Shown here one piece after another: positions 23,138 through 52,220 of a stretch of DNA of 64,000 nucleotides; position 1 is the first letter of the stretch, and the number at the start of each line of letters is the position of its first letter. A model generated the notes under the pieces. That model ran no database searches. It saw only the letters and a list, made by a program, of their open reading frames with translations, and was not told the origin of the DNA. A program made the translations under genes and the position numbers. This stretch comes from Pseudorhodobacter sp. MZDSW-24AT (GTDB lineage: Bacteria; Pseudomonadota; Alphaproteobacteria; Rhodobacterales; Rhodobacteraceae), in contig NZ_PGOI01000008.1 in assembly GCF_002794355.1 (NCBI RefSeq), positions 620,001 through 684,000 on the forward strand, read 5' to 3'.

Positions 23138-23254
23138 TCTGGTCGTCTCCCTGAATGGCGGCGGTTTTCCCACCCCGGTTTTGTTGATTGGTGAGTCAAT
23201 AGAAACGGGTGTTTTGCCATCGGGCAACGATTCGTGGCCCTTCACACGATTTTT

Positions 23255-25270
23255 TCAGACAAAGCGGCGCGGCACCTTTTCCTTGAAATCACGGGAAAAG
23301 ATCAGCTCATCGCCTTCCCAAGCGGCCAAAGTGGCATGCATGTGCAGATGCGACGCATCGCCAAACATTTGCGCCGTCACCTGCGTGCGCACCCGCCACG
23401 CCTCGCGCGACAGGCGCTGCTCCCAGACATGGGTGGCGCGGGCGCTCAGCGGGTCGTCGGGGTGGATTTCCCAGCGTTCGGTCAGCGTCTCACCCGTGCA
23501 CAGCCCGTGGCTCAGGTTTTCGACATCCCCCCCATCCTCCAGCACGCAAAGCGCGCGGGCGCCGGTGATCAGATCGGTCTCGACACAGCGGCGCGATTGC
23601 CCCTTGCGCAACACCCGGTGCGCCCAAGGCGTTGCGGCCTCGGGCGCGGGCGGGGACCAGCTGTCGCCCCCCTGATGCAGGGGCAGGGTCAGGCGGCCTT
23701 GGGTCAATGTCAGTTGGGCTTTGGCGGGCGAGGGCCAGAGGAAAGGCCAGTAGCTGTTCGACAGCGCCAGCCGCAGGCGATGGCCGGGGGAAAGGCGGTA
23801 GGCCATCTGGTCAAGATCGAAGGAAATCTCTTCCGCTTTGCCCGGCGTCATCGGCTCTGGCGCGGCCCGATCGTGACGGTGGCAAAGGTTCAGCATCCCA
23901 TGCGCGATGCGCACCGAAGTGCCATCCGGGGCCACGTCACACAGCCGCGCCACCACAAGGCCAAGCGGCTGGTCCGAGGCCAGCCGCAACCGTAGGCGGG
24001 CGGCGCCCAGAAGCGACAGGGGCGCGTCCAGCACCGGCCCGTCAAAGCAGAGGCTGAGCGCGTCATCCGGGGCCTGATCGCCGGGCATTTCCGCGTTCAG
24101 ACCCATGGGAAAGAACTCGCCCGCCCAGAGGCCAAGGTGTTGCGCTGTCGACACAATCCGCTCAAAACCTGAGGTTTCGACTTGCCCCAATATCCCGCCG
24201 CCGTCTGCGGTGACACCCAGATGCAGATCCTGCGCCGTGACCTGCGGGCTGGGCCAGTCCGCCTCGGCCACCCAATGCCCGGCGCGGTGGCGGGCCGAGG
24301 CATCGGGTGGGGCAGAGTGCAGCATGTAGGCGCGCATGGCCGGATCGGCCTCGGCCCCGTTGGGCAGGCCCTTGAGCCAGCGGTCCCACCAGCGCAGCGC
24401 CTCTTGCAGAAAGCCGATGGCCGGGCCCGGCACCGCCGTGTGCGGATATTGATGCACCCAAGGGCCGATGATGCCTTTGGCGCCCACATGGCGCACCAGC
24501 GCATCGACCGTGTTCATATAATTGTCGGCCCAGCCCCCGATCGACAGCACCGGCACCTGCACGCGTGCGAAATCCTCGCAGATGGAACCATGCTGCCAAT
24601 AGGCGTCGCGCGCCTGATGTGCGGCCCAGCGCGGCGCAAGCCACGGATTAGCCTCCAGCCGCCGGAGCCAATCCGCGCGCCAATCGGGGCGCAGCGCGGG
24701 ATCGGCGGGGCGGCTGGAGAAGGACAGCATCACCGCGCCCCAGCCGAAATTCTCGCCCAGAAGGCAGCCCCCCTTGAAATGGATATCATCGGCGAAACGG
24801 TCCGTGGTCGAGCAAACCGAGATCACCGCCTTGAGCGCAGGGGGCTGCAGAAAGGCGGTTTGCAGACAATTGAAGCCTCCCCAGCTTTTGCCCATCATGC
24901 CCACTGCGCCCGTGCACCACGGCTGTGCGGCCAGCCATGCGATCACATCGCAGGCATCCTGCAATTCCTGCGCCGTGTATTCATCTGTCATCAGCCCGTC
25001 ACTGTCACCATTGCCGCGCATATCGACCCGCACGCAGGCATAGCCGTGGCCGGCAACATAAGGGTGCATCAGCTCATCGCGGGGCAGCGTGCCATCCCGC
25101 TTGCGGTAAGGAATGTATTCCAGCACGGCTGGCACCGGATGCTCTGCCGCATCTTGAGGCAGCCAGACCCGTGCCGAAAGGCGGGTGCCATCGGGCATCA
25201 CGATGCCCATGTCCTCGACCTCGCGGATCGAACGCGGAAAGTCCGTTACTGTTTTCAAGGCATCCCCCAT
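23255..25270 (-). CDS. CocE/NonD-type acyl esterase (X-Pro dipeptidyl-peptidase S15 family)
   Basis: Predicted hydrolase of 671 residues. The alpha/beta hydrolase domain (residues 15-290) has EYIPYRKRDGTLPRDE, VRVDMRGNGDSDG and the nucleophile elbow GKSWGG (Ser129), with GWADNYMNT providing the aspartate region and GPWVHQYPH the histidine. A C-terminal jelly-roll (about 310-540) follows, as in cocaine esterase and glutaryl-acylases, and then an additional C-terminal segment to residue 671. No signal peptide, so cytoplasmic. First gene of the transporter operon, 98 bases from the divergent choline-sulfatase gene. It may hydrolyse an ester or amide brought in by the transporter. Confidence 0.88.
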   Translation of the reverse strand: MGDALKTVTDFPRSIREVEDMGIVMPDGTRLSARVWLPQDAAEHPVPAVLEYIPYRKRDGTLPRDELMHPYVAGHGYACVRVDMRGNGDSDGLMTDEYTAQELQDACDVIAWLAAQPWCTGAVGMMGKSWGGFNCLQTAFLQPPALKAVISVCSTTDRFADDIHFKGGCLLGENFGWGAVMLSFSSRPADPALRPDWRADWLRRLEANPWLAPRWAAHQARDAYWQHGSICEDFARVQVPVLSIGGWADNYMNTVDALVRHVGAKGIIGPWVHQYPHTAVPGPAIGFLQEALRWWDRWLKGLPNGAEADPAMRAYMLHSAPPDASARHRAGHWVAEADWPSPQVTAQDLHLGVTADGGGILGQVETSGFERIVSTAQHLGLWAGEFFPMGLNAEMPGDQAPDDALSLCFDGPVLDAPLSLLGAARLRLRLASDQPLGLVVARLCDVAPDGTSVRIAHGMLNLCHRHDRAAPEPMTPGKAEEISFDLDQMAYRLSPGHRLRLALSNSYWPFLWPSPAKAQLTLTQGRLTLPLHQGGDSWSPPAPEAATPWAHRVLRKGQSRRCVETDLITGARALCVLEDGGDVENLSHGLCTGETLTERWEIHPDDPLSARATHVWEQRLSREAWRVRTQVTAQMFGDASHLHMHATLAAWEGDELIFSRDFKEKVPRRFV

Positions 25271-25368
25271 GGTGGCGCATTTGGCTTGCGCGGGTCGCCT
25301 GTGATCAAGACAAGGAAAGGCACGCTTTGCAAGCTTGGGCCGACGTGCCAGCCAGAAGGATACCGCCG

Positions 25369-26895
25369 ATGTCCAGCCCCCAGACGCCACAAACCGACCG
25401 CCCGAATATTCTGGTGGTCATGGTCGATCAGCTCACGGGGACCCTGTTTCCGGACGGCCCTGCCCCGTTTTTGCACGCGCCCAATCTGCGACGGCTGGCC
25501 GACCATGCCTTGCGTTTTCAGAATTGCTACACTGCCTCACCGCTGTGCGCCCCGGCGCGCGCGTCCTTTATGTCGGGGCAACTGCCCAGCCGGACGCGGG
25601 TTTATGACAATGCTGCCGAATTCGCCTCGGATATCCCCACCTATGCCCATCATCTGCGGCGGGCAGGCTATTACACCGCACTTTCGGGCAAGATGCATTT
25701 CGTCGGGCCCGATCAGCTGCACGGCTTTGAAGACCGGCTGACCACGGATATCTACCCCGCCGATTTCGGCTGGACCCCCGATTACCGCAAACCCGGCGAG
25801 CGGATCGACTGGTGGTATCACAACCTTGGCTCGGTCACTGGCGCCGGTGTGGCCGAGATCACCAATCAGCTGGAATATGATGACGATGTGGCGTTTCAGG
25901 CCGTGCAGAAGCTTTACGATCTGTCGCGGGGAGGCGATGCCCGGCCTTGGTGCCTGACTGTCAGCTTCACGCATCCGCATGATCCTTTTGTCGCGCGGCG
26001 CAAGTATTGGGATCTTTACACGGGCGTGCCCGAACTGGAGCCGCCAGAGGCGATCCCTTATGCCGATCAGGACCCGCATTCCCAGCGTTTGATGGAGGCC
26101 TGCGACTGGCGGGCCTTCGACATCACAGCCGATCAGATCCGCCGGGCGCGCCAAGGCTATTTTGCCAACATCTCTTACGTCGACGCCAAGATCGGCGAAA
26201 TTTTCGCCGTGCTCGAGGCCACCCGACAGGAAGCCATCGTGGTGTTCCTGTCAGATCACGGCGAGATGCTGGGGGAGCGTGGCCTGTGGTTCAAGATGAA
26301 CTTCTTTGAAGGCGCGGCGCGGGTGCCTTTGATGATTTCAGCCCCGGATCTTACGCCCGGGCTGATCACCGATCCGGTGTCCACCATCGACCTTGCGCCG
26401 ACGCTGGCAGCGCTGGCCGGAGTCGATATGGCCGAGGTCAGCCCTTGGACTGATGGGGTCAATCTTTTGCCGATGGCCACAGGCGGCACCCGCCCCGTGG
26501 TGGCCATGGAATACGCCGCCGAAGGCACCCTTACCCCGATGGTCGCGTTGCGAGAGGGCGCGTGGAAATACATTCGCTGCCCTGCCGACCCCGAGCAACT
26601 GTTTGATCTCGCCTCTGACCCGGAAGAGCGCGAAAACCTTGCCAGCGATCCGCGCGCGGCCGAGATTCTGGCGCATTTCCGCAAGATCGCCGATCACCGC
26701 TGGGATTTGCCCCGCTTTGACGCCGCGGTGCGCGAAAGCCAGGCCCGCCGCTGGGTCGTGTATGAAGCGCTGCGCAACGGGGCCTATTTCCCATGGGACC
26801 ACCAGCCGCTGCGCGCTGCGTCAGAACGCTATATGCGCAACCATATGGATCTGAACGTGCTGGAAGAAAACAAGCGATTTCCCCGCGGAGAATAG
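25369..26895 (+). CDS. betC: Choline-sulfatase
   Basis: Hydrolyses choline-O-sulfate to choline and sulfate, feeding choline to osmoprotection or catabolism. The 508-residue protein has the alkaline-phosphatase-fold sulfatase features: PNILVVMVDQLTG at the metal site, the formylglycine motif CAPAR with Cys60, SGKMHFVGPDQLHGFE and VFLSDHGEMLGERGLWFKM. The C-terminal RRWVVYEALRNGAYFPWDHQPL tail is the choline-sulfatase-specific domain. Start at 25369 with AAGGA nine bases upstream. It is not next to betA/betB/betI here; it faces the esterase-transporter operon instead. Confidence 0.93.
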   Translation: MSSPQTPQTDRPNILVVMVDQLTGTLFPDGPAPFLHAPNLRRLADHALRFQNCYTASPLCAPARASFMSGQLPSRTRVYDNAAEFASDIPTYAHHLRRAGYYTALSGKMHFVGPDQLHGFEDRLTTDIYPADFGWTPDYRKPGERIDWWYHNLGSVTGAGVAEITNQLEYDDDVAFQAVQKLYDLSRGGDARPWCLTVSFTHPHDPFVARRKYWDLYTGVPELEPPEAIPYADQDPHSQRLMEACDWRAFDITADQIRRARQGYFANISYVDAKIGEIFAVLEATRQEAIVVFLSDHGEMLGERGLWFKMNFFEGAARVPLMISAPDLTPGLITDPVSTIDLAPTLAALAGVDMAEVSPWTDGVNLLPMATGGTRPVVAMEYAAEGTLTPMVALREGAWKYIRCPADPEQLFDLASDPEERENLASDPRAAEILAHFRKIADHRWDLPRFDAAVRESQARRWVVYEALRNGAYFPWDHQPLRAASERYMRNHMDLNVLEENKRFPRGE

Positions 26896-27314: not shown

Positions 27315-28007
27315 TTAAAGGGCGACGTGATCGCTTTCCGAGTAGGTCCAATCGTCCTGCCGGGCATCTGCCTTATGTGTCGTGCCGATGCGCCGGTAAT
27401 TCGCGCGTGAACTGAGCAGATGCGCCCGCATCGCAGCCTCGACCCACTCTTTATCCTGTGCGTCAAACGCTGAAACCACATCTTCGTGCTGCCGGTTGCT
27501 GCGGATCAACTCGGCTTGCGTCCAGTTGTTGAAGGTGGGGCTGACCACGGGTTTGCGCGCCACCATATTCACCAGATCGCTGAAGATCGCATTGCCCCCC
27601 TGACGCCAGATGACCCGATGAAACTGCGCGTTCAAATCGCGATAGGCGCGCCGATCAGGGTCTGTCTGCAGGATGGCATAATCCATCCTTGCATGGAGAT
27701 CGCGCAAGGCATCGATGAAGCCCACATCGGCGAAGGGCACGGCCATGCCAGCGGCAATCGGCTCCAAGGCTGCCCGCGCAGTGAAAATATGGATCACCTC
27801 ATTGGGGTCGAGATCTACGACGATAGCGCGCCGGTAAGCTTCTCGGCGGATCACGCCTTCGGCCTGCAAGCGGCGCATGGCCTCGCGGACAGGGGTGCGG
27901 CTTACGCCAAGACGTGTTGCCAGTTCGCTTTCCGGAATACTGTCGCCGCCAATATAGGCCCCTTCCGCGATAAGCGCCCGAATTCTGGCATAGATGTCTT
28001 CTGCCAT
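27315..28007 (-). CDS. GntR-family regulator, FCD subfamily
   Basis: Predicted repressor of 230 residues with an N-terminal winged HTH (IYARIRALIAEGAYIGGDSI, then ATRLGVSRTPVREAMRRLQAEG) and an FCD ligand domain (about 75-215) with the histidines of the metal site (NAQFHRVIW, MRAHLLSSRANY). It is the last gene of the minus-strand operon that begins with the unusual binding protein at 35012, and a dyad in the divergent region 35013-35267 is its likely operator. It probably senses a carboxylic acid intermediate of the FAH-type pathway; this is inferred. Confidence 0.87.
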   Translation of the reverse strand: MAEDIYARIRALIAEGAYIGGDSIPESELATRLGVSRTPVREAMRRLQAEGVIRREAYRRAIVVDLDPNEVIHIFTARAALEPIAAGMAVPFADVGFIDALRDLHARMDYAILQTDPDRRAYRDLNAQFHRVIWRQGGNAIFSDLVNMVARKPVVSPTFNNWTQAELIRSNRQHEDVVSAFDAQDKEWVEAAMRAHLLSSRANYRRIGTTHKADARQDDWTYSESDHVAL

Positions 28008-28031: not shown

Positions 28032-29189
28032 CTATCCGAAATCCCGTGCCGCAAGCCAATCGGAAACCAAAGTAGCTGCGGCGGTGAGTTCCCGGGGCTG
28101 ACCAACGAAATAGTGGTTCGCTTTTGGCACCACCTGCATTGCCTTGTCCTGTGAGGCGACGGCAGCAAAAATGCGCCCTGTATGTGGCTGCGGAACGGCA
28201 TCATCGGCGCCACATTCCAGTGCCAAAAACGGCACGCTGATGGCTTTCCCGGCAACAAGAGAGTCAGCCCGGCTATGCGCGGGCGACCATTGTGACAACC
28301 AACTGCGCAAAGTGGAGACGCGCCCCAGACCAACCGGGCCGCTGTTAACGACCTCTGGTTTGCCCAGGTAGCTCCACCCCGGCTTGCGGCCGTTCGGGTC
28401 GATGCGAGGGTCCAGAAATCGTGGATCGGCCATCGTTCTGTGCGTGACAAAGACCCGCTCGGCTTCCAGCCCGCCCGACTTGCGCAGCCGCTCCAGCACC
28501 TCCAGCACACGCGTGGTAATCCGCTTCATCCGCGCGGCCTGAGCCGCACGATAGGCGGCAAGGAAATCGGCCGAAAAGGCCTGATCCAAGGGCTGCGCAT
28601 AGAGGTCAAGCAGAGGATCCCGATCATCCGGATCGCTTTCATCGCGGACCGACGGGTCAACCCATTCGGTCAGAAGCAAGGCGCGTGAACTGTGCGCTGC
28701 AATGCTTAGAACCGCGTCTGCCGGGCGAAGGTGCGCCCCTGCAATGTCCACCGGATCTCCTGCCGCTGTCTGGGTGATCGTTGGACGTTCTGCCTGTGAT
28801 TGATAAAGCATGGCCAAAGAGCCCCCCCCGCTCCACCCGCACAGAACCACCTTGTCGTACCCCCAGTCTTCGCGTGCAGCCCGGATCCATGCGCCCAGAT
28901 CCAGAACAACATTCTCCATGATCAGAGTGGTGTCATTGCGCTGATAGCGGCTTCCCGCGCATAAGACGTGATAGCCGGCCCTCGCCATGGCTTGCGGCAA
29001 GGGCAGGAGATGCAAGGTCGAGGATGGATGCATGAAGACAAGCAGGCTGCGCGACGTGCCTGTGGCGGGCCGGATGAGCACGCCTTCAATATGGGTCAGC
29101 CCTTGCGAGCCGCTGAAGCCATAAGTTTCGGTAAAGGCCCGATTTGCGGCAAAGGCAATATGTTTCCAGTCAAAAATCAACTCTGCCAT
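28032..29189 (-). CDS. Alpha/beta hydrolase, unknown substrate
   Basis: Predicted cytoplasmic hydrolase of 385 residues. The nucleophile elbow is GWSGGGS; a cap region of about 130 residues follows (residues about 145-270), then CGADDAVPQPHTG as the acid region and KANHYFVGQP with the catalytic histidine. No signal peptide. The start overlaps the end of the upstream ATPase gene by 13 bases, so it belongs to the transporter operon. A role in hydrolysing the imported ester, lactone or amide before FAH-type cleavage is suggested by the neighbours only. Confidence 0.83.
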   Translation of the reverse strand: MAELIFDWKHIAFAANRAFTETYGFSGSQGLTHIEGVLIRPATGTSRSLLVFMHPSSTLHLLPLPQAMARAGYHVLCAGSRYQRNDTTLIMENVVLDLGAWIRAAREDWGYDKVVLCGWSGGGSLAMLYQSQAERPTITQTAAGDPVDIAGAHLRPADAVLSIAAHSSRALLLTEWVDPSVRDESDPDDRDPLLDLYAQPLDQAFSADFLAAYRAAQAARMKRITTRVLEVLERLRKSGGLEAERVFVTHRTMADPRFLDPRIDPNGRKPGWSYLGKPEVVNSGPVGLGRVSTLRSWLSQWSPAHSRADSLVAGKAISVPFLALECGADDAVPQPHTGRIFAAVASQDKAMQVVPKANHYFVGQPRELTAAATLVSDWLAARDFG

Positions 29190-30301
29190 CTTGCATCCTC
29201 AGCCGCTGCGACCAAGGCCCCTGTCTCCGCGACCTCTGTGATCTTGCCGGCGCGGGGCGCGGGCAAATCAGGATGTGCCCGCGCGGCGCGGTCATCATAG
29301 ATGTGGCAACGCACGCGATGCGCCTCGGCTTGGTCCGACAGCGCGGGCTCCACCGCCTCACACAATGCGGTGGCATAGGGGCAGCGCGATGAGAAGCGAC
29401 AGCCCGGTGGCACCGCCAAGGGGGATGGCACGTCGCCACGCAACTCGATCCGTTCCGGTGTCTCGCCCGGGGTCATGCGCGGGATCGCATCCATCAGGCG
29501 CTGGGTGTAGGGATGCAGCGGGCGCATCAGAACGTCTTCCGACCGTCCCTCTTCGACGATGCGGCCAAGATACATCACTGCCACATGATTACAGATATAG
29601 CCCACCGTTGCGATGTCGTGGGAGATGTAAAGTACTGCCAGACCAAGCTCGCGCGACAATTCATCCAGCAATTCCAGCACACTGGCCTGAATGGACACGT
29701 CCAGCATCGACACTGGTTCATCCGCAACGATAAACTTGGGTTCTAGCACCAAAGCGCGCGCAATGGCCACCCTTTGCCGCTGGCCGCCCGACAGATCAGA
29801 CGGGTATCGGTCGATATTGCCTTCCGCCGGGATGCGGACCAGTTCCAATGCCCGGATCACCTTTTCGCGCCGCTCGGCCGCGGTGCCAATGCCATGGATG
29901 ATCAAGGGCTCTTCAATTACCTGCCCGATGGTTAGGCGCGGGTTCAGCGATGAGTAGGGGTCCTGAAAAATGATCTGCGCCGAATGGCGATACGCTTTAA
30001 GGCGCCGCCCTTCAACCTTGGTAATATCTTCCCCGCGATACAGAATCTGTCCGTCGGTGGGCTGATACATCCGCACCAGCGTCATGCCCAAAGTCGATTT
30101 CCCGCACCCAGATTCGCCAACCAGCCCCACAATCTCGCGCTCGCGGATGCGCAGGTCGACGCCATCCAAGGCACGCGCGCTTGGTGGCTTGACGCCGACC
30201 AAGGCGCTGAGGATGCCGCTTCGGCCCTGAAAATGGGTCTTCAGATCCTGTGCTTCGATCACGAGCGGTGCAGAGGGATCAATGGCGTGACGCGTGCTCA
30301 T
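29177..30301 (-). CDS. ABC transporter ATP-binding protein, OppF/DppF type
   Basis: ATPase of 374 residues with [24 protein letters not shown] and FIVADEPVSMLD, plus the C-terminal oligopeptide-transporter extension (CRFSSRCPYATALCEAVEP) whose cysteines bind an Fe-S cluster in related proteins. The start at 30301 overlaps the preceding ATPase gene by four bases. This system uses two separate ATPases, unlike the three other Dpp-type systems in the window, which use fused ones. Confidence 0.92.
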   Translation of the reverse strand: MSTRHAIDPSAPLVIEAQDLKTHFQGRSGILSALVGVKPPSARALDGVDLRIREREIVGLVGESGCGKSTLGMTLVRMYQPTDGQILYRGEDITKVEGRRLKAYRHSAQIIFQDPYSSLNPRLTIGQVIEEPLIIHGIGTAAERREKVIRALELVRIPAEGNIDRYPSDLSGGQRQRVAIARALVLEPKFIVADEPVSMLDVSIQASVLELLDELSRELGLAVLYISHDIATVGYICNHVAVMYLGRIVEEGRSEDVLMRPLHPYTQRLMDAIPRMTPGETPERIELRGDVPSPLAVPPGCRFSSRCPYATALCEAVEPALSDQAEAHRVRCHIYDDRAARAHPDLPAPRAGKITEVAETGALVAAAEDARWQS

Positions 30302-31419
30302 ACCGCACCTCTCATGGTTCGCCAGGTTTCGGGACGTGCCGCCGCGACACGGAATTCGGCGGCACGGTCCGTATGGTGGCAAGCCGCGCGCTGCGCGCCC
30401 ACCTGCACCACAGGCGGCGTCACCCTGTGGCAGACCTCGGTTGCAAAGGGGCAACGGCTGGCAAAGCGACACCCCGCCGGCGGCAACAGAAGGTTCGGCA
30501 CCACGCCGGGGATGGAAATCAAGGGCTGGCGCGGCGCACCCCGCTCTGGCAACCGTGGGAAGGCGTTTTTCAAACCCATGGTATAGGGGTGTAATGGGCT
30601 TTCCAGCACTTCCGCCGTCGGCCCACTTTCCGCGACTTTGCCCGCATACATCACCACGATGTTCTCGCAGGTCTCTGCGACGACCGCGATGTCGTGGGTC
30701 ACAAGGATCATGGAACAGCGAAGATGCGCATGAATGCCGCGGATACGTGTCATGATCTGGGATTGCATGATTGGATCGAGTGCGGTTGTCGGCTCATCCG
30801 CCAATAGCAGACCGGCATTCAGCGCAAGGGCCATGGCGATCACGGCGCGCTGCCGCATTCCGCCCGAAAACATATGCGGAAACTCATAAAGCCGCCCCGC
30901 TGGTAGCCCGACGAGGGCAAACATCTGCTCTGCTCGCGCCCAAGCCGTGGCCTTGCTGACAGGCTCGTGCGCCAGAATGGCCTCCGAAATCTGGTCGCCG
31001 ATGCAATAGACGGGGTCTAATGAGTTCATTGCGCTTTGGGTGATCAGCGACATACGCTTCCAGCGCACATCGCGCAGGGCGGTTTCATCAAGGCCAAGGA
31101 TGTTCTGGCCATCCAGCAAGGCGCGGCCGGAGACCTGCGTGGCCTCGGGTTGCAGCCCCATCAGCGTTTTGACCACAGTACTTTTCCCGCAGCCACTTTC
31201 TCCCACCAAGCCCAGATTGGTGCCAGCAGGCACTTCAAAGCTCACGTCTTCCACAGCGTGAAACCGACCGCGCAAGGTGGAATAGCCAATAGATAGCCCA
31301 TCGACCAGCAGATGCGCCGCAGGCTTGCGTGCGAGCCTTTCGGTCAGTTTCTCCAACTCGGCCAAGGTGGCGGGGCTGGCCGGACGTTGGCCAAAACGGG
31401 GCGAAGCAACGGCAACCAT
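30298..31419 (-). CDS. ABC transporter ATP-binding protein, OppD/DppD type
   Basis: ATPase of 373 residues with [24 protein letters not shown] and [12 protein letters not shown], and the oligopeptide-type C-terminal cysteine motif ([14 protein letters not shown]). An N-terminal extension of about 35 residues precedes the ATPase core. It joins the upstream permease gene by a TGATG one-base overlap. Confidence 0.92.
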
Positions 31420-32330
31420 CAGCGCTTCCTCAGTCGGGGGTTGGTCTGTTCCTCATAGGCCCGACCGATCAGGTAAAGGGCAGATACCAGCATCACCAGT
31501 GCCAGAGAGGGCGGCACCACCCACCACCACGCGGTGCGCAGATTGCCGCTGGAAAAGGCAGTGTTGAGCATCTGGCCCCAGCTGATCACCGTTGGATCAC
31601 CCAGGCCCAAGAACGACAGACTGGCCTCGGTCAGCACCGCAAAGGCCACCGACATTGTCACCCACAGAAAAACGACGCGGATGATATTGGGCAGAATGTG
31701 TCGCATGATGATGTGAAAATGCGATGCCCCCGCTGCGCGGGCCCATTTTACGTAAACCCGCTCGCGCTCTGTCAACACTGCCGACCGGATGATCCGCGCC
31801 CCGTTGCGCCAGAACAGAACGGTGATCACAAGGATGATGTTCTCAATGCTGGGCCCCAGCAGGGCAACCGCGACGATGGAAAAGGGCAAGGTAGGGATGG
31901 ACAATGCGACATCGGTGATCCGCATCAGCACATCATCCACCCAGCCCCCAAAGTAACCTGACAGCACACCGAACAAAGTCGAGATAAAGCCCACAGCAAT
32001 CGCTGCGACCAAGCCCACCAACAGCGCCACTCGGAAGCCATGCAGAAACTGGCTCAGCACATCATTGCCAAAGGCGGTGGTGCCCAACAAATGCTCTCCC
32101 GAAGGCGGCCGCAAGCGCGCGAGACGCCCTGTCTCGGTCATCATTGCTTTGAACGGATCGAAGGGGGCCAGATAGGGCGCCGTGAGTGCGATGATTACGA
32201 ACAGAAGCAAGATCGAGACGCCCACCACGGCAAAGCTGTCCTGCATGACTTGACGCCACGAGTCCCATGCCGCAGACCACGCGCTGCGACCCCGGATGGC
32301 GGCGGGGGTATGGGGAGAAGCCTGCTTCAT
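31419..32330 (-). CDS. ABC transporter permease, DppC/OppC type
   Basis: Inner-membrane subunit of 303 residues, six helices. Recognised by LTAPYLAPFDPF, HLLGTTAFGNDVLSQFLHG, the EAA loop (ARAAGASHFHIIMRHILPNIIRV) and SLSFLGLGDPTVISWG. The start at 32330 overlaps the DppB-like gene by four bases; a longer frame to 32486 adds a cysteine-rich, non-membrane leader and is rejected. Confidence 0.93.
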   Translation of the reverse strand: MKQASPHTPAAIRGRSAWSAAWDSWRQVMQDSFAVVGVSILLLFVIIALTAPYLAPFDPFKAMMTETGRLARLRPPSGEHLLGTTAFGNDVLSQFLHGFRVALLVGLVAAIAVGFISTLFGVLSGYFGGWVDDVLMRITDVALSIPTLPFSIVAVALLGPSIENIILVITVLFWRNGARIIRSAVLTERERVYVKWARAAGASHFHIIMRHILPNIIRVVFLWVTMSVAFAVLTEASLSFLGLGDPTVISWGQMLNTAFSSGNLRTAWWWVVPPSLALVMLVSALYLIGRAYEEQTNPRLRKR

Positions 32331-33292
32331 TTGTAAACCACCCGTGGATCGAGTTTTCCATAAATAAGATCGGCCGCAAGGTTTGCGATCACGATCATCA
32401 CGGCCAGCAGGAAGAAGGCAGCCTGCGCAAGAGGATAATCCTGCCGGGTCACCGCCAGCACCAATTCGCGCCCCACACCTGGCCATGAGAACACGATTTC
32501 AATTACCACGATCCCCGCGATGGTTTCAGCCAAGGCTGGAAACAGCCATGTGATCAGTGGCAGCATGGAATTGCGTGCGGCGTGCCATGCCACCCGCCGC
32601 TGCGGCACGCCTTTGGCGCGGACGAGCTCGATGTAATCCTCGGTTCGATTCTCGACCACGCCAGACCGCATCAGAAGCAGGTTTTCCGGCATGAAATAGA
32701 TGATCACCGCAATCAGAGGCAGCGCCAGGTGGTGCAGAAAATCCAGCGTCATGTAGCGCGCAAAGCCGGTCGTCTCGCCCGGATCTCCCATGCCAAAGCT
32801 AGGGAACCAGCCCAATGTGCTGGAGAAGATGGTCAGCAGCGCGATCCCGATGACAAAGTTCGGAACGCCTCGAATGATGGTCGCCAAAAATATGCCCGAC
32901 CGTTCCAGCTTGCCCCCCCGCTTGGCCCAGCCCACCGCGGTGCCGATGGCCGCGCCCAGTGCCGCGCCAAGGAGCAGACCGGGCACTGCAATCCACAATG
33001 TGTTGATGATCAACGGGGTCAGCACTTCCCAGACTGGTTTGCGATACAGGAAGGACGACCCGAAATCCCCGGTCAGGATATTGCCCAGGTAGGCGATGTA
33101 TTGATCCCAAAGTGAGCCGGTCAGCCCCCATTGCTCCAACAGCGCCTGACGCGCCTCGTCGGTCAGTCCGCGCTCGAGCAAAATCGCGGTGGGGTCTGCG
33201 GGCATGACGCGGAACATGAAAAACATGATCGTCGTCACGGCCCAGACGACAAGCACGCTTTGTGCAAGGCGACGGAAGATGTAAGCGCGCAT
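32327..33292 (-). CDS. ABC transporter permease, DppB/OppB type
   Basis: Inner-membrane subunit of 321 residues. Starts MRAYIFRRLAQSVLVVWAVT, has VMPADPTAILLERGLTDEARQALLEQWGL in the large first periplasmic loop and an EAA loop (RAKGVPQRRVAWHAARNSMLPLI). The gene lies 100 bases after the binding-protein gene, with a long GC hairpin between them. Confidence 0.93.
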   Translation of the reverse strand: MRAYIFRRLAQSVLVVWAVTTIMFFMFRVMPADPTAILLERGLTDEARQALLEQWGLTGSLWDQYIAYLGNILTGDFGSSFLYRKPVWEVLTPLIINTLWIAVPGLLLGAALGAAIGTAVGWAKRGGKLERSGIFLATIIRGVPNFVIGIALLTIFSSTLGWFPSFGMGDPGETTGFARYMTLDFLHHLALPLIAVIIYFMPENLLLMRSGVVENRTEDYIELVRAKGVPQRRVAWHAARNSMLPLITWLFPALAETIAGIVVIEIVFSWPGVGRELVLAVTRQDYPLAQAAFFLLAVMIVIANLAADLIYGKLDPRVVYK

Positions 33293-33392: not shown

Positions 33393-35012
33393 TCACTGCT
33401 TGGGGTAATGAAGCGCGCCCTGCGCATCCCAGCCAAAGCCCGCTTCGGCCAAGGCGGCACGCGCCGCCTCGACATCGAAGGCGATTTCAGGCAGGTCAGG
33501 ATTGTACCACATGCCCAGTTGCTTGGGCACTGGCCCCTCTCCGGCCGGCACGGCAAACCCTAGCCAGCCCTCTATTGCGGCGCGGTCCTTGGCGGTCGCC
33601 AAGCGCAACGCCTTGCGGAAGGCCGGGTTGGTGAAAGGCTCCTTCTCATTGTTCAGCCAGATCAACATTGTGCCGTGCGACGGGATCTCTAGAAAATCGA
33701 GATCGGCATTCTGATCGGCCAAATCGTTCATTGACGCGACCGGCAGCACCATGGTGGCAATGTCACCTTGCCCCGAAAGCATGGCCGAGCGGATGGCATC
33801 TGCCTGCCCCAGCGCCAGACGCCGCACGCCATCATAGCCCGGTGCGTTGAAATGCGCCGTGTTGGCATCCAACTCGTGCACCTCGTTCACACGCCACGTC
33901 TTGAACTTGAAAGGACCGCTGCCGATCGCAACGCCATCGGCGATCACGTCGCGCGCCACCATGTCGCCCGTGTAATCTGCCCACAGGTGTTCTGGCAGGA
34001 TAAAGGCATAGGGCAGCACCGTGGTGACGAAGGTGGCATCCGGCGCTTTCAGTTTAACGATGAAAGTCAACTCATCCACCTTCTCTGCGCCCGCAAGGTT
34101 TGCGATCCGCGAAGACATCGCGGGCGGTTGCAACTCCACCACCTTGCTCAGAGTAAAGACAGCATCATCAGCCGTGACAGGCTCGCCATCGTGAAAGGTC
34201 ATCCCCTCGCGCAGGGTGATCTTCACCGTGGTCGGGTCGGTGAATTCCCATTCCGTGGCCGCCCAAGGGATTGTCTGCCCCTCGGAATTGTTCTTGGCGA
34301 AGGTATCATAGACAAAGCGCAGCCAGCCGACAGCGCCTTCCTCGGCCAAGGGGTTGTAGGTGGTCACATCTTCATAATGCGCCCAATCCAGCCAGCGGTC
34401 ATCCGTCAAGGGGCGCGCCGACAGCCAAGGGTCAATCAAACCCTCATGCGCGGCCACCGGCTCGGGCGAGGTTACATTTTCCCATTTCGCGCTGTTCCAG
34501 ACCATGCCATAGACCGTGTTCGTCGCGGGCCACCATGGCATCGTGTCATAGAATTGCTGCTGCGCGGCGTGGACGGCGGCAATACGCTCGTCCTGATCAA
34601 TCAGCTCGCGCTGGCCTTTGACGGCGGCGGTGTACCCCTCATCGCACCACTTTGCGCCGTTCCGCCGCGCGCCGCAGGCGCCAAGGTCATGCAGCCAATA
34701 GGTTGGGTCCACCCGATCCGGGTCGGCCCCCACGGTGAAGACGGCCATATCTTCCAGCCCACCCCCAACCATGATGTTCGAGATAAAGCTGCTAAACTGG
34801 ACCGGCTGCATCTGGAACCGAAGCCCCAGCTTCGCCCATTCTTCCGACAAAACGCGGGCAGACTGTTCATACATCGGGCCCATGTCTGCGGCGTAATAGG
34901 CGATCTTCAACTCTGGAACCGGCTCTCCGAGATCCTGCGCCAGTGCGGGCACGGCACATGCAAAAAGTCCTGTGGCCAGCCCAAAGGGCAGCCTCCTGAC
35001 GATGGCAGTCAT
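33393..35012 (-). CDS. ABC substrate-binding protein, SBP family 5, with apparently permuted halves
   Basis: Periplasmic receptor of transporter system 2; 539 residues with Sec signal (MTAIVRRLPFGLATGLFACAVPALAQ). The domain order is reversed. Residues 30-185 match the C-terminal part of ordinary family members: LSEEWAKLGLRFQMQPVQF, then DPDRVDPTYWLHDL and IDQDERIAAVHAAQQQF, like the ending of the binding protein at 21554. Residues about 205-539 match the N-terminal part: TTYNPLAEEGAVGWLRFVYDTF, EWEFTDPTTVKITLREG, MTFHDGEPVTADDAVFTL, and end at AARAALAEAGF, where relatives normally continue into the second half. One continuous frame, no stop. Cys113 and Cys123 may form a disulfide. Divergent from the FAH-type operon. 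Confidence 0.9.
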   Translation of the reverse strand: MTAIVRRLPFGLATGLFACAVPALAQDLGEPVPELKIAYYAADMGPMYEQSARVLSEEWAKLGLRFQMQPVQFSSFISNIMVGGGLEDMAVFTVGADPDRVDPTYWLHDLGACGARRNGAKWCDEGYTAAVKGQRELIDQDERIAAVHAAQQQFYDTMPWWPATNTVYGMVWNSAKWENVTSPEPVAAHEGLIDPWLSARPLTDDRWLDWAHYEDVTTYNPLAEEGAVGWLRFVYDTFAKNNSEGQTIPWAATEWEFTDPTTVKITLREGMTFHDGEPVTADDAVFTLSKVVELQPPAMSSRIANLAGAEKVDELTFIVKLKAPDATFVTTVLPYAFILPEHLWADYTGDMVARDVIADGVAIGSGPFKFKTWRVNEVHELDANTAHFNAPGYDGVRRLALGQADAIRSAMLSGQGDIATMVLPVASMNDLADQNADLDFLEIPSHGTMLIWLNNEKEPFTNPAFRKALRLATAKDRAAIEGWLGFAVPAGEGPVPKQLGMWYNPDLPEIAFDVEAARAALAEAGFGWDAQGALHYPKQ

Positions 35013-35115: not shown

Positions 35116-35267
35116 ACTTTTCAGAAGGTCAACAATTTTCTGCTTGATTTAGATCGAAACATGTCGAAATTGGATGCACTTGGGATTTGCCTCCGTTTCA
35201 AACGTTGAGGACAAAGCGCCATGGCGCCGGAAATCACAGCGCCACACAAACGCTTGGGAGGGCGAGT

Positions 35268-36542
35268 ATGACGCAATCATGGGTGAAGGGGGCAAATCGC
35301 CCAGACTGCGATTTCTCTTTGGGAAATTTGCCCTATGGCGTGTTCGAGGCCAATGGAAACACGCCCCGATGCGGGATAGCGATCGGCGACATGATCCTTG
35401 ATCTGTCAGAACTGGTCTTTGCCGGAAAGCTGGTCGCGGAGAATTGCGGATTTGACCGCCCTGCCCTGAATACCTTCATGGCTGCCGGACCAAACACTTG
35501 GGAAGCTGTACGCAATCGGGTGACGGAACTTCTGGCCGAAAATGGCAGCACCGATCTGCGCGATGATGCAGCGCTCTGCCACCGGGCGCTGGTGCCACAG
35601 TCCTCCGCACAGATGCATCTTCCCATCGAGGTCAAAGGCTATACGGATTTTTATGCCGGTCGGCAGCACGCCTTCAATTCTGGCTCGATCCTGCGTGGGC
35701 CAGAGAATGCGCTGCCCCCCAACTGGTCGCATATGCCGATCGGCTATAACGGACGCGCCTCAACGGTTGTCGTCTCGGGCACGCCAGTGCGGCGGCCCTT
35801 GGGCCAGACCTTGCCGCCGGGCGGGGACTCACCGGTCATCGGGCCTTCGCGGCGACTGGACATCGAAGTGGAATTCGGAGCCATCGTCGGTATTTCGACC
35901 GAGCTTGGCCAGACCCTGACATTGGCCGAGGCATGGGAGCACCTGTTTGGCTTTGTGCTGCTGAACGACTGGTCCGCGCGCGATATCCAGCGTTGGGAAG
36001 GCCAGCCGCTTGGCCCCTTTCAGTCAAAAGCTTTTGCCACCTCCATCAGCCCTTGGGTCGTCACCCGCGCCGCTCTGGAGGCGTGCCGTCGCTCAGCGCC
36101 TGCGCGCGACAAAGCGCTTTTGCCTTATCTGCATGAAACCGCGCCCTATTTCTTTGACATCACGCTGGAAGCGCATCTAAAGCCCGCCGATGCAGACCGC
36201 GCGAGCCGGATCGTGCAATGCAACACCACACAACTCACCTATTCCGCGCCACAACTTCTTGCCCATCACGCCCTGTGCGGCTGCCGGATGCAAACTGGCG
36301 ATCTGCTTGGCTCCGGCACGATTTCAGGGCCAGAGCGGCATAACTTTGGCTGCCTTATGGAGCAAAGCTGGGGAGGCCGCGACGAGATTGCCCTTGAGCA
36401 CGGTGGAAGCCGCAAGTTTCTGGAGGACGGGGATAGCGTAACCCTGACGGGCTGGGGCATGGCGAACGGTAATCGGATCGGGTTTGGCCGTTGCGAAGGG
36501 CAGATCTTGCCCGCGCATGCCGAAGTCGGAAAGGGCGCCTGA
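35268..36542 (+). CDS. fahA: Fumarylacetoacetase
   Basis: Hydrolyses fumarylacetoacetate to fumarate and acetoacetate, the last step of homogentisate (Phe/Tyr) breakdown. The 424-residue length and two-domain layout (N-terminal SH3-like domain to about residue 115, then the FAH catalytic domain) match full fumarylacetoacetases rather than the short FAH-fold family. Characteristic stretches: VKGYTDFYAGRQHA, RPLGQTLPPGGDSP, LDIEVEFGAIVG, LLNDWSARDIQ and GSGTISGPE. Start at 35268 with GGGAGGG upstream. First gene of a four-gene plus-strand operon. Homogentisate dioxygenase is not in the window. Confidence 0.92.
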   Translation: MTQSWVKGANRPDCDFSLGNLPYGVFEANGNTPRCGIAIGDMILDLSELVFAGKLVAENCGFDRPALNTFMAAGPNTWEAVRNRVTELLAENGSTDLRDDAALCHRALVPQSSAQMHLPIEVKGYTDFYAGRQHAFNSGSILRGPENALPPNWSHMPIGYNGRASTVVVSGTPVRRPLGQTLPPGGDSPVIGPSRRLDIEVEFGAIVGISTELGQTLTLAEAWEHLFGFVLLNDWSARDIQRWEGQPLGPFQSKAFATSISPWVVTRAALEACRRSAPARDKALLPYLHETAPYFFDITLEAHLKPADADRASRIVQCNTTQLTYSAPQLLAHHALCGCRMQTGDLLGSGTISGPERHNFGCLMEQSWGGRDEIALEHGGSRKFLEDGDSVTLTGWGMANGNRIGFGRCEGQILPAHAEVGKGA

Positions 36543-37393
36543 TGCGGATTTGCAGGTTCAATGACAATCGGCTTGGCGTCGTGCGCGGCGCGGGTGTGCA
36601 CGATGTTACCTGTGCGCTGGCGAGCCTGCCAACTTGGCAATACCCCTTGCCCGACCACGACCCCTTGATCGCGGCGCTGCCGACTCTTCGCCCCATGCTT
36701 GATGCTTTGGCAGACAAGGCCCCCGCCCTGCCCCTCGACACCCTGCAGCTGCTGCCGCCGGTTGCTTCGCCGCGCAAGATCATCGCGGCCCCGGTCAATT
36801 ATCGTCTGCACCATGACGAGGCCTTGGCGGATCCATCCATCCACCATGGCACCAATATCTTGCCCATCGACAAGGCCGGCCTGTTTCTAAAGGCCACCAG
36901 TTCGCTGATCGGAGCCTCTGATCCGGTGGTGATCCGGTTCCCCGAAGCACGCAACGACCACGAGATCGAACTCGTGGCCATCATCGGACGCCCCGCGTCA
37001 AAGGTGACTGCAGAGCAAGCGCTGTCTTATGTGGCGGGCTACAGCATTGGTCTGGACATGACGCTGCGTGGCACACAAGAACGCAGCCTGCGCAAATCCT
37101 GCGACAGCTACACTGTTCTGGGCCCGTGGCTGGTCACCTCGGACGAGGTTCCCGACCCAAGCGGGCTTGAGATGGAATTGCAGGTGAACGGTCAGACACG
37201 GCAACGCGCATCAACCAAAGACCTCTTGCGCGATGTTGCCACGCTGATCGCCCGCGCCTCGGCCTTCTACACGCTGATGCCCGGCGATCTTCTGTTTACC
37301 GGTACGCCCGAAGGGGTTGACCCGGTGATACCGGGCGATGTGATGCGCGCCCGGATTTCAGGCATTGGCGAAATGCAGGTCATGGTGACCTAA
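36542..37393 (+). CDS. Fumarylacetoacetate-hydrolase-family protein
   Basis: Predicted metal-dependent hydrolase or decarboxylase acting on an acylpyruvate-like beta-diketo acid; 283 residues. An N-terminal domain of about 90 residues precedes the FAH catalytic domain, which shows KIIAAPVNYRLH, the HEIELVAIIG metal-ligand glutamates, a VAGYSIGLDMTLR segment and FTGTPEGVDPV. It joins fahA by a TGATG overlap. The exact substrate cannot be deduced; relatives include 2-oxohept-3-enedioate hydratases and acylpyruvases. Confidence 0.87.
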   Translation: MRICRFNDNRLGVVRGAGVHDVTCALASLPTWQYPLPDHDPLIAALPTLRPMLDALADKAPALPLDTLQLLPPVASPRKIIAAPVNYRLHHDEALADPSIHHGTNILPIDKAGLFLKATSSLIGASDPVVIRFPEARNDHEIELVAIIGRPASKVTAEQALSYVAGYSIGLDMTLRGTQERSLRKSCDSYTVLGPWLVTSDEVPDPSGLEMELQVNGQTRQRASTKDLLRDVATLIARASAFYTLMPGDLLFTGTPEGVDPVIPGDVMRARISGIGEMQVMVT

Positions 37394-37408
37394 CAGCAGG
37401 AGCACTCC

Positions 37409-38104
37409 TTGGACTATCTTTTTGATCCTCTCCCCATCCAAAGCGTCGCGGTTGAAGGCGAAAGCCACCGCTTCCCATTGCGCCGCATTTTTTGCGTCGG
37501 CCGCAACTACGCGGATCATATCCGTGAAATGGGCTTTCAGCCCGAGCGCGAACCACCGTTCTTCTTTACCAAGCCGATTGATGCGCTAGTCCAAGATGGT
37601 GAAACAGTAGCCTATCCGCCACTCACAGAAAATTTCCACCACGAGGCAGAGCTTGTGGTCGCAATTGGCAAGCCTGGTGCGGACATCCCTGTCGAACGCG
37701 CCCTTGATCACGTCTACGGCTACGCAGTCGGAAATGATCTGACCCGGCGCGACGTGCAGTTCGCCCTTCGCGACCGCGGTCGTCCATGGGATTGGAGCAA
37801 GGCGTTTGACAGATCCGCCGTCGTCGGCACGATCACCCCTTCGCAACGGCGCGCCCTTTCCGGCGAGACCCGGATTCACCTTTCGGTCAATGACGAGGTG
37901 CGTCAAGATGCAACGCTGAAGACGATGATCTGGAGCGTCGCTGAAATCATCGCAGCCTTGTCAAACTCGGTCACCATTCGGCCCGGAGATCTGGTGTTTA
38001 CGGGCACACCAGCGGGCGTGGGCCCTCTGACACCGGGCGATATCTGCACCGTCAGCATCGACGGCCTGCACCCCATCACGACAGTCATCGGGCCCAGAGA
38101 ATGA
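37409..38104 (+). CDS. Fumarylpyruvate hydrolase-like FAH-family protein (NagK-type)
   Basis: A 231-residue single-domain FAH protein. It contains RIFCVGRNYADHIREMG, FFFTKPIDALV, the FHHEAELVVAIG ligand motif, GNDLTRRDVQ, WDWSKAFDRSA and FTGTPAGVGPL, a set typical of fumarylpyruvate hydrolases of the gentisate pathway. Translation begins at a TTG at 37409 preceded by AGGAG. It overlaps the GST-like gene by four bases, and this hydrolase-isomerase pair is the usual NagK/NagL couple. Confidence 0.85.
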   Translation: MDYLFDPLPIQSVAVEGESHRFPLRRIFCVGRNYADHIREMGFQPEREPPFFFTKPIDALVQDGETVAYPPLTENFHHEAELVVAIGKPGADIPVERALDHVYGYAVGNDLTRRDVQFALRDRGRPWDWSKAFDRSAVVGTITPSQRRALSGETRIHLSVNDEVRQDATLKTMIWSVAEIIAALSNSVTIRPGDLVFTGTPAGVGPLTPGDICTVSIDGLHPITTVIGPRE

Positions 38105-38748
38105 CCGCAATCCGGCTGCACAGCTATTTTCGCTCCTCCACCTCAGTGCGGGTACGCGTAGCGCTGGAGTTGAAAGGCCTTGCCTATGACTACATCGCTT
38201 GGAACCTGCGGACGAATGAACAGTGCAGTCCTGATTATCTCGACATTAACCCGCAAGGTCTTGTGCCAGCCATTGAAATCGATGGGCAGGTGCTGACGCA
38301 ATCCCTGCCCATCATCGAATACCTTGACGAACGATTTCCGGGCTCGCCCCTTTTGCCTGCGGAAAGCATGGCGCGGGCGCGGGTGCGGTCGCTTGCCGCC
38401 ATGGTGGCGAGCGATCTTCACCCTTTGAACAACCTGCGGGTCCTGCGATACCTTGAGGCGCAGTTTGGTGCTGATATGGCCGCACAAACCCTTTGGTTCA
38501 GGCACTGGGCCAAGGCCACGCTTGATCCGCTCGAGATGCTTTTGGCCCATTCGACGCAAACTGGACGGTTTTGCCATGGCGATGAGCCAAGCATGGCCGA
38601 CATTTGCCTGTTCGCCCAATTGCTGAACAATCGCCGCTTTGACATCGACAACGCGGCTTGGCCCACTTTGGCGCGCATTCACGCGGCGTGCGTCGCCGAT
38701 CCTGCCTTTGTCAAAGCCATGCCAGAGCAGCAGATCGATGCTGCGTGA
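38101..38748 (+). CDS. Maleylpyruvate/maleylacetoacetate isomerase (zeta-class GST)
   Basis: Glutathione-dependent cis-trans isomerase of a maleyl to a fumaryl keto acid; 215 residues. The zeta signature YFRSSTSVRVRVALELKG at residues 9-26, NPQGLVPAIEIDGQVLTQSLPIIEYLDERFP and the all-helical second domain are clear. Next to an NagK-like hydrolase it would act on maleylpyruvate; next to fahA it could act on maleylacetoacetate. Both substrates may be used. Last gene of the operon; 52 bases separate it from the convergent ATPase gene. Confidence 0.9.
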   Translation: MTAIRLHSYFRSSTSVRVRVALELKGLAYDYIAWNLRTNEQCSPDYLDINPQGLVPAIEIDGQVLTQSLPIIEYLDERFPGSPLLPAESMARARVRSLAAMVASDLHPLNNLRVLRYLEAQFGADMAAQTLWFRHWAKATLDPLEMLLAHSTQTGRFCHGDEPSMADICLFAQLLNNRRFDIDNAAWPTLARIHAACVADPAFVKAMPEQQIDAA

Positions 38749-43253: not shown

Positions 43254-44759
43254 TTACTCGACGAAAACTTCCCAACCGTTGACCTGATCTGCCGGGCGAG
43301 GGGTAAAGCGGATGCCTTCGGCGATCCCCCAAGCCATCTGGTGCTGCCACATGAAGGCTGCGGGGGCTTCTTCCACCAGATGGGAAATGGCCGCTTGCAT
43401 CTTGGCGCTGCGATCGGCCGGATCAAAGGCGGCGCGCTCAGCATTCAAAAGCGCGTCCAGCGCCGGATCCGCGAAACCAATGCGCGGCGAGCCTCCGGTG
43501 GCAAAATATTGGTGAAGCGCGCGCGAGGGATCGATCATCGAGCCGCGCCCCATGTAATAGAAGGGCACATTGCCCTGCTGCACATTCGCCCAGAGGGTCG
43601 CCCATTCCGGCGTGTCGAGCGTGACAGTGAACCCAGCGGCTTCCAGCATCGGCACCATGGCCTCGGCGATCTGCCGGTCGGCCGTATAGCGGCCCACGGG
43701 GGTCGACAGCGTGACTTCGACACCCTCTAAGCCCACCGAGTGCAGCAGCTCGCGCGCTTTCTCGGGATTGTAATCAAAGGGGCTGACGAAGCCCGGATCA
43801 AAGCCGATCTGGCCTTCGCTGACTGGGCCATTCAGCAGATGCGCCTGCCCTTGAAGGATGGCCCGCACAATTGCCTCACGGTTGATGGCATGTGCCACCG
43901 CTTGCCGTGCCTCTTTGACATCCCAAGGATGAGTTTTGGGCGACATGGCAAGGAACATCATCTCAACCGAGTTGACCGAGGCGATGCGGGCGTTGGGCAG
44001 GTCTTCGACCCGCTGCATCAGTTGCGGCGGCACGCTTTGTGCGATCTGAACCTCGCCGTTGGCCAGTGCCGTTACACGTTGCTCGGGTTCGGCCATAATT
44101 CGGTACATGATCTGGGCCGGATTTGAGGGCGATACGAGCGGGTGGTCGTCGTTGCGCTCAAGCACGATGTGCTGACCGATGGCAACTTCAGACAGTTTGT
44201 AAGGCCCTGCGCCATAAGGAGCCTCCGCGAACATGGCATCGCCCAATTGATCGAAAAGCGCTTTTGACGTGACCGCAACGCCGGCAAGGTTATCCCGCAG
44301 AGTGGCATCGGGGGTGGCAGTCGTGATGCGCACGGTGCGCGCATCCAACGCTTCGACTTTTTCCCAGCCGGCTACAAGGTAAGCCTTGCCCGAGCCCGGG
44401 TTGCTGCCGAGATATTGGATAGAATGCACGATGTCCTCGGCCAGTACCGGATCACCGTTATGGCGTTTCAGTCCCTCGGGCAGCACGATTTCCCAAGTCA
44501 ACTCATCGAGCGAAGTGACGGATTCAGCAAGGTAGGGGACGAATTCACCCTTGTCGAAATCATAACGCGTGATGCAGCCATAGATCTGGCACCAGACGCT
44601 GCCCAAAAGAACCACCGGATCACTATAGGGGTTATAGCCCGAGATGGTTTCGGTGATGGCCACCGCAATCCGCGCGCCCTGAGGCTCCTGCGCCTTGAGG
44701 GTTGTGGCCGGGCTTGCCACCGCGAGCGCCGCGAGAAGAGGTAGAAGTTTCGTTCGCAT
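43254..44759 (-). CDS. ABC substrate-binding protein, SBP family 5 (system 3)
   Basis: Periplasmic receptor of 501 residues with a Sec signal (MRTKLLPLLAALAVASPATT, cleavage near LKA). The usual order is present: SGYNPYSDPVVLLGSVWCQIYGCI, then FVPYLAESVTSLDELTWEIVLPEG, then a lobe II part and TADRQIAEAMVPMLEAAGF, ending with an ADRSAKMQAAISHLVEEAP stretch. Two cysteines (WCQIYGC) may form a disulfide. First gene of the operon; a 28-base dyad in the upstream region suggests control by the divergent TetR protein. Ligand unknown. Confidence 0.92.
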   Translation of the reverse strand: MRTKLLPLLAALAVASPATTLKAQEPQGARIAVAITETISGYNPYSDPVVLLGSVWCQIYGCITRYDFDKGEFVPYLAESVTSLDELTWEIVLPEGLKRHNGDPVLAEDIVHSIQYLGSNPGSGKAYLVAGWEKVEALDARTVRITTATPDATLRDNLAGVAVTSKALFDQLGDAMFAEAPYGAGPYKLSEVAIGQHIVLERNDDHPLVSPSNPAQIMYRIMAEPEQRVTALANGEVQIAQSVPPQLMQRVEDLPNARIASVNSVEMMFLAMSPKTHPWDVKEARQAVAHAINREAIVRAILQGQAHLLNGPVSEGQIGFDPGFVSPFDYNPEKARELLHSVGLEGVEVTLSTPVGRYTADRQIAEAMVPMLEAAGFTVTLDTPEWATLWANVQQGNVPFYYMGRGSMIDPSRALHQYFATGGSPRIGFADPALDALLNAERAAFDPADRSAKMQAAISHLVEEAPAAFMWQHQMAWGIAEGIRFTPRPADQVNGWEVFVE

Positions 44760-52176: not shown

Positions 52177-52220
52177 CTCAATCCTCCCGTTTTCAGTAGT
52201 GCTGTCGTAGGTACTTCCAC

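Follow-up and report, generated by a model that had tools for sequence, protein, structure and literature searches.

We analyzed a 64,000-nucleotide stretch of the Pseudorhodobacter sp. MZDSW-24AT genome (the window) containing a gene for a substrate-binding protein (SBP) of family 5 whose 2 parts stand in swapped order, and compared it with 10 orthologous loci from Pseudotabrizicola, Rhodobacteraceae LNNU 3342, Paracoccus, Acuticoccus, 2 Stappia, Nitratireductor, Devosia, Aminobacter, and Aureimonas. The permuted gene is followed downstream by a transporter set (DppB-, DppC-, DppD-, and DppF-type genes) and by genes for an alpha/beta hydrolase and a regulator of the GntR type. The features of the window are as follows.

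33393..35012, minus strand: circularly permuted SBP family 5 gene, 539 aa (ATG start, 539 codons), identified by Pfam, HMM, and profile matches
34935..35012, minus strand: putative signal peptide, residues 1-26, ending ...PALAQ, without a lipobox (read from the sequence; motif scan)
34422..34931, minus strand: first half, residues 28-197, corresponding to the C-terminal part of ordinary SBP5 (HMM ~380-503; DppA ~355-479), by HMM, shuffles, and profile
34398..34460, minus strand: junction at which the former C- and N-termini meet, at about residues 185-205, from the rotation scan and the alignment of model residue 206 with DppA residue 1
33396..34421, minus strand: second half, residues 198-539, corresponding to the N-terminal part of ordinary SBP5 (HMM 49-368; DppA 1-346), by Pfam, HMM, and model
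32327..33292, minus strand: DppB-type permease
31419..32486, minus strand: DppC-type permease (probably begins downstream of the listed start)
30298..31419, minus strand: DppD-type ATPase
29177..30472, minus strand: DppF-type ATPase (probably begins downstream of the listed start)
28032..29189, minus strand: alpha/beta hydrolase, present in 10/10 orthologous loci
27315..28007, minus strand: GntR/FCD regulator, present in 10/10 orthologous loci
35187..36542, plus strand: divergent fumarylacetoacetase (TIGR01266), present in 10/10 orthologous loci
36491..37393, plus strand: FAA-hydrolase-family enzyme, present in 10/10 orthologous loci
21554-23245, 43254-44759, and 50683-52650: ordinary family 5 genes (own-genome entries C25, C26, and C20)

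The protein is encoded in one uninterrupted 539-residue frame, as the initial annotation had proposed without naming a strand; the strand is minus, and the plus strand across 33393-35012 carries 3 stops. The stretch GGGAGGAG stands immediately upstream of the ATG. The signal peptide claimed earlier agrees with a signal-peptide-like N-terminus, as read by eye. The source genome is rich in family 5 proteins, with 15 matches to the query, 4 of them, including the permuted one, within the 64 kb window. An X-Pro dipeptidyl-peptidase gene (S15/PepX_C) at 23255-25390 directly adjoins a gene for one of the ordinary family 5 proteins.

Homologues of the same order, for which the initial annotation had advised a search, were found. 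Under one HMM rule, 38 distinct proteins including that of the window were permuted (30 alphaproteobacterial and 8 haloarchaeal), and 28 were ordinary. The permuted set comprises the window protein, 14 plasmid loci, the 10 orthologous genome loci, and 13 further genome loci; duplicates (L001, L028, and L061-L066), a truncated sequence (L035), and a viral-contig sequence (L067) were left out. In all 38, the cut site falls in one short region, with the first half beginning at model position 365-396 and the second ending at 368-388. By tblastn against plasmids, the window query gave 34 records with at least 80% coverage at <30% identity and a Halalkalicoccus query gave 41 records; among the matches listed, all taxa at this coverage were Alphaproteobacteria or Halobacteria. 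Two plasmid hits considered as permuted candidates (H104 and H109, matching from query residues 144 and 174) were both ordinary when read. One genome (G044) carries 2 permuted copies. Two alphaproteobacterial proteins (L034 and L040) form a permuted subgroup with 100/100 support in a 61-row tree and have a longer stretch ahead of the first half, the matched part starting at frame residues 185 and 110, respectively.

Gene order around the permuted gene is retained at 10/10 orthologous loci; the second FAA gene (37409) has a close match in 6/10 of the orthologous stretches and maleylacetoacetate isomerase in 5/10. Fumarylacetoacetase, 2 FAA-hydrolase-family genes, and maleylacetoacetate isomerase are clustered at 35187-38748. 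We considered tyrosine/homogentisate breakdown as the setting, yet a search of the source genome found neither 4-hydroxyphenylpyruvate dioxygenase (TIGR01263) nor homogentisate dioxygenase HmgA (TIGR01015), so the setting is not plain tyrosine breakdown. Elsewhere, permuted proteins mostly adjoin Dpp-type transporter genes, and peptidase- or amidohydrolase-type genes (M20, M28, M81, TldD, D-aminoacylase, creatininase, and oxoprolinase) lie near 7/12 annotated plasmid loci. In Nitratireductor sp. OM-1 (L016:11328-13631) and Natrinema zhouii (L024:10768-12870), a single long ATP-binding gene, within which both DppD and DppF queries match, replaces the separate types.

Because its gene neighbors include a GntR regulator and catabolic enzymes, the permuted protein could be mainly a sensor or scavenger that no longer feeds a transporter, and the scoop-loop "ER" of DppB (E41 and R42 in E. 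coli) was identified in just 11/30 partner permeases, all in the orthologue group of the window. We consider this improbable, because 2 permeases and 1 or 2 ATPases then follow on the same strand in 12/12 annotated plasmid loci and the transporter genes are kept in 10/10 orthologous loci. The likely role is to bind an acyl or peptide-like compound in the periplasm and hand it over to the channel: the permuted protein would close on its ligand and deliver this to the neighboring channel of DppB and DppC, which DppD and DppF would drive.

The dipeptide-binding residues of DppA named in the available part of PMC12136057 are Arg383, the residue for the dipeptide carboxylate, and Asp436 (precursor numbering). 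Arg383 is retained in only 2/38 permuted proteins and absent from 36/38, so we do not assume that they bind dipeptides as DppA does; the ordinary sample itself has it in only 1/28. The Asp436 column is ambiguous because most permuted rows carry a 2-residue insertion. Beside this site, a P-[DE]-R-x-DP-like stretch, 2 residues longer than in DppA, occurs in most permuted proteins (window residues ~97-103) and is a possible signature of the subfamily.

SBP_bac_5 (PF00496) was the sole Pfam family matched by the 539-residue protein, at 174.5 bits against a curated cut-off of 32.4. Searched separately, as had been suggested as a check, the second half matched SBP_bac_5 positions 3-283 at 5.4e-48 alone; the first half matched positions 288-359 and was weak alone (E 0.042, below the curated cut-off), yet it scored 29.9 bits against an HMM built from 23 family 5 proteins of ordinary order, taken from the same genome and relatives, where 500 shuffles reached at most 3.7. 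An ordinary N-to-C match to PF00496 was obtained for the 28 ordinary proteins and not for the 539-residue protein, whose 2 stretches lie in swapped order, and it was therefore classed as a permuted variant and not as an ordinary family 5 member. The 3 other family 5 proteins of the window, at 21554, 43254, and 50683, which the initial annotation had used as an internal comparison, do keep the normal order, each matching PF00496 in one ordinary-order run, and both of its motif correspondences (the ending near residue 140 and LRxGVTFxDGTxFxAxDV at 267-285) were reproduced in the alignment.

Against the ordinary HMM in native order, residues 205-526 fell on model positions 49-368 (208.7 bits) and residues 42-163 on 380-503 (26.1 bits). 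A phmmer search of the PDB gave the same picture with HbpA (3tpa), query residues 248-526 aligning with chain positions 54-347 and residues 45-169 with 365-487, the second stretch at 12.7 bits. We then rotated the mature chain in 15-residue steps and scored it against the ordinary HMM. Cuts at 162-207 gave a single continuous match of about 49-503 with 245-246 bits, and cuts outside this range gave lower scores or a match split in two. The peak coincides with the join proposed earlier, where the natural termini would meet. Thus, one rotation is enough to restore a continuous match to the parent family, with the old termini joined near 185-205 and the new ones between DppA residues ~339 and ~355, as in a circular permutation.

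The weakness of the first half alone in Pfam would also be expected of a truncated ordinary protein, retaining its N-terminal part, that had been fused to an unrelated N-terminal domain, and a sequential structure aligner left the predicted model before residue ~198 unaligned, with 49/50 VIA rows beginning at model residue 198-207. This is very improbable, as the first half corresponds precisely to the C-terminal segment that the second half lacks (HMM 380-503, with the 500 shuffles as control). In an alignment of 23 permuted proteins (A1), the rotated chain scored higher than the best native-order domain in 23/23, with a gain of about 35-81 bits. All 23 matched PF00496 at E <= 0.001, and no other Pfam family, cluster B sugar-binding families included, was matched at that threshold. 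The A1 profile searched against the PDB placed both halves on one chain of DppA (1dpp) in swapped order, the second half at 32-339 and the first, with an i-Evalue of 8e-18, at 355-479. Further, Asp439 of DppA, in the DP motif (residue from the available part of PMC12136057), is D in 34/38 and E in 3/38 permuted proteins. The best stretch begins at profile position 204 or later in all of the best 60 of 105 PDB rows, so no solved structure among these spans the join.

A predicted model of the permuted protein (pLDDT 76) aligned residues 206-537 with DppA 1-346, the VIA and Foldseek rows covering the second half only. The alignment behind this model included ordinary family 5 proteins cut into 2 fragments, so the model is not independent of homology; one built from permuted rows alone (11 close relatives) was poor (pLDDT 41.7). 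We infer an ordinary two-lobed family 5 fold whose termini have shifted out of the N-lobe and into the C-lobe. What was the C-terminal part (DppA ~355 to the end) comes first, behind the putative export signal, and what was the N-terminal part (DppA residues 1 through ~346) follows, with the old termini joined and the new termini in the region of DppA ~339 to ~355.

An assembly error or recent local rearrangement that swapped two segments of an ordinary gene in the source genome only has in its favor the oddity itself, the 14 other family 5 matches of the genome starting at query residue 207 or later and looking ordinary, and is refuted to the point of being negligible by independent genomes, with the same order at 77-95% identity in 10 other assemblies of different species by contig search (which removes the read or assembly error at 185-205 that the initial annotation had named as fatal to its reading), by 27 more distant permuted proteins, and by purifying selection on both halves. 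Compared with the 10 orthologues, the first half had a dN/dS of 0.015-0.095 and the second half one of 0.034-0.10; across the join, dN/dS was <= 0.095 in 6/10 and undefined in 4/10, where dS was inestimable.

The proposal that the swapped halves are a natural circular permutation is thus supported by the HMM, the rotation scan, the profile match to DppA, and the predicted fold, and we are highly confident that the 539-residue protein is a naturally circularly permuted periplasmic SBP of family 5 (cluster C). Sequence analysis establishes that the halves are swapped, that the cut region is shared, that the protein is under purifying selection, and that it belongs to a transporter operon, and the arrangement looks like an old, kept rearrangement rather than a sequencing error. 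It also extends beyond the single protein visible to the initial annotation to an entire subfamily that is conserved among bacteria and archaea.

A match across the join was identified in 7/142 sampled genomes of the class (8 genes) and in 7/196 of the order; a separate scan of the class returned the same 7 genomes, 1 more that was cut by a contig end, and 4 that were ordinary. In Pseudomonadota, scans of 299 genomes (4 candidates per genome, E <= 1e-70) and of 398 genomes (up to 6 candidates per genome, E <= 1e-25) identified as permuted only the window's own protein, and these phylum-wide scans are weak because the samples were thin and few candidates were scored per genome. Six other genomes in the 398-genome scan matched the first-half part alone, to position 211/283, and looked ordinary.

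We built trees of the separate halves and joined trees in which the halves of permuted rows were placed in common order. Permuted rows formed one side of a branch in a 66-row quick tree (SH-aLRT 96), and the permuted branch had bootstrap 88 and SH-aLRT 24 in the 61-row joined tree and support of 95/85 in the second-half tree. The first-half tree required 2 changes in all bootstraps, because an ordinary long-branch sequence (L055) falls beside 2 permuted archaeal rows (75/85); for this half, an AU test did not reject a single permuted clade (p 0.273). A single origin of the permutation is favored, though unproven. Permuted rows from archaea and bacteria are interspersed, with 4 label changes in the 66-row tree and 5 for the archaeal group in the 61-row tree, which suggests transfer between the domains. 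The permutation would have arisen, most likely once, when an ordinary family 5 gene was duplicated in tandem, the copies fused in frame, and the outer ends were lost; the permuted genes may later have passed between Alphaproteobacteria and Halobacteria. No duplicated intermediate preceding the permutation was found among the frames scored for HMM classification.

A lipobox ([LVIAT][ASTVI][GAS]C) was identified ahead of the first half in 8/8 archaeal permuted proteins, each time preceded by an RR pair, in 0/30 bacterial permuted proteins by the same motif scan, and in 1/28 ordinary proteins scanned over the first 80 residues. Since the 30 bacterial members are without it, tethering is not needed for keeping the permutation. 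We take the DppA structure to have its ordinary termini in the N-lobe and the cut region in the C-lobe. From the archaeal lipobox and a cut in the C-lobe, we infer that the archaeal lipid anchor would sit on the other lobe than usual. Tentatively, and at somewhat less than an even chance, a single ancient permutation founded a subfamily that later moved between Bacteria and Archaea and transferred the anchor, whether for export or lipid, out of the N-lobe and into the C-lobe; haloarchaeal proteins would then be tethered by the opposite lobe and swing differently onto the transporter.

To our knowledge, it is uncommon for natural circular permutants to endure as entire families. The permuted protein resembles DppA, OppA, and AppA (SBP family 5, PF00496, cluster C) in sequence family, predicted two-lobed fold, export, and DppBCDF-type genes and differs in its swapped parts, with termini at DppA ~339-355 and not at 1/507. 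A close parallel is TpMglB-2 (Tp0684), described in the available part of PMC4990184 as a naturally circularly permuted substrate-binding protein of several bacteria that still binds its ligand, for which its authors coined "Type Ic / Cluster Bc" and whose moved termini, they proposed, might help a tethered protein. Both are natural permutations of a substrate-binding protein, but TpMglB-2 belongs to another family and fold class (cluster B, sugars) of mostly tethered proteins, whereas the permuted family 5 proteins belong to cluster C and include the 30 bacterial members lacking a lipobox. Permutation relations among glycine-betaine-binding proteins and their kin were found by structure comparison (CPSARST; PMC2395249); these are other families, found from structures at <24% identity, and the available part of that source names no family 5 protein. 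Among the matches listed in one open-access library, which does not cover all literature, we found no permuted family 5 protein in print. The earlier statement that none has been described stands on this basis for family 5, but it had left out the permuted binding proteins of the 2 other groups (PMC4990184, PMC2395249).

The permuted proteins constitute a real, conserved, and apparently undescribed family 5 subfamily across bacteria and archaea, which plain domain annotation hides: 12/12 annotated plasmid loci read "ABC transporter substrate-binding protein." The cut site marks a naturally accepted opening in the chain of a peptide-binding protein and is useful for sensor design. The subfamily offers soluble bacterial and lipid-anchored archaeal versions of one permuted design alongside relatives of ordinary order encoded by the same genome, and provides a second, independent test of the termini-tethering idea within a very common binding-protein family.
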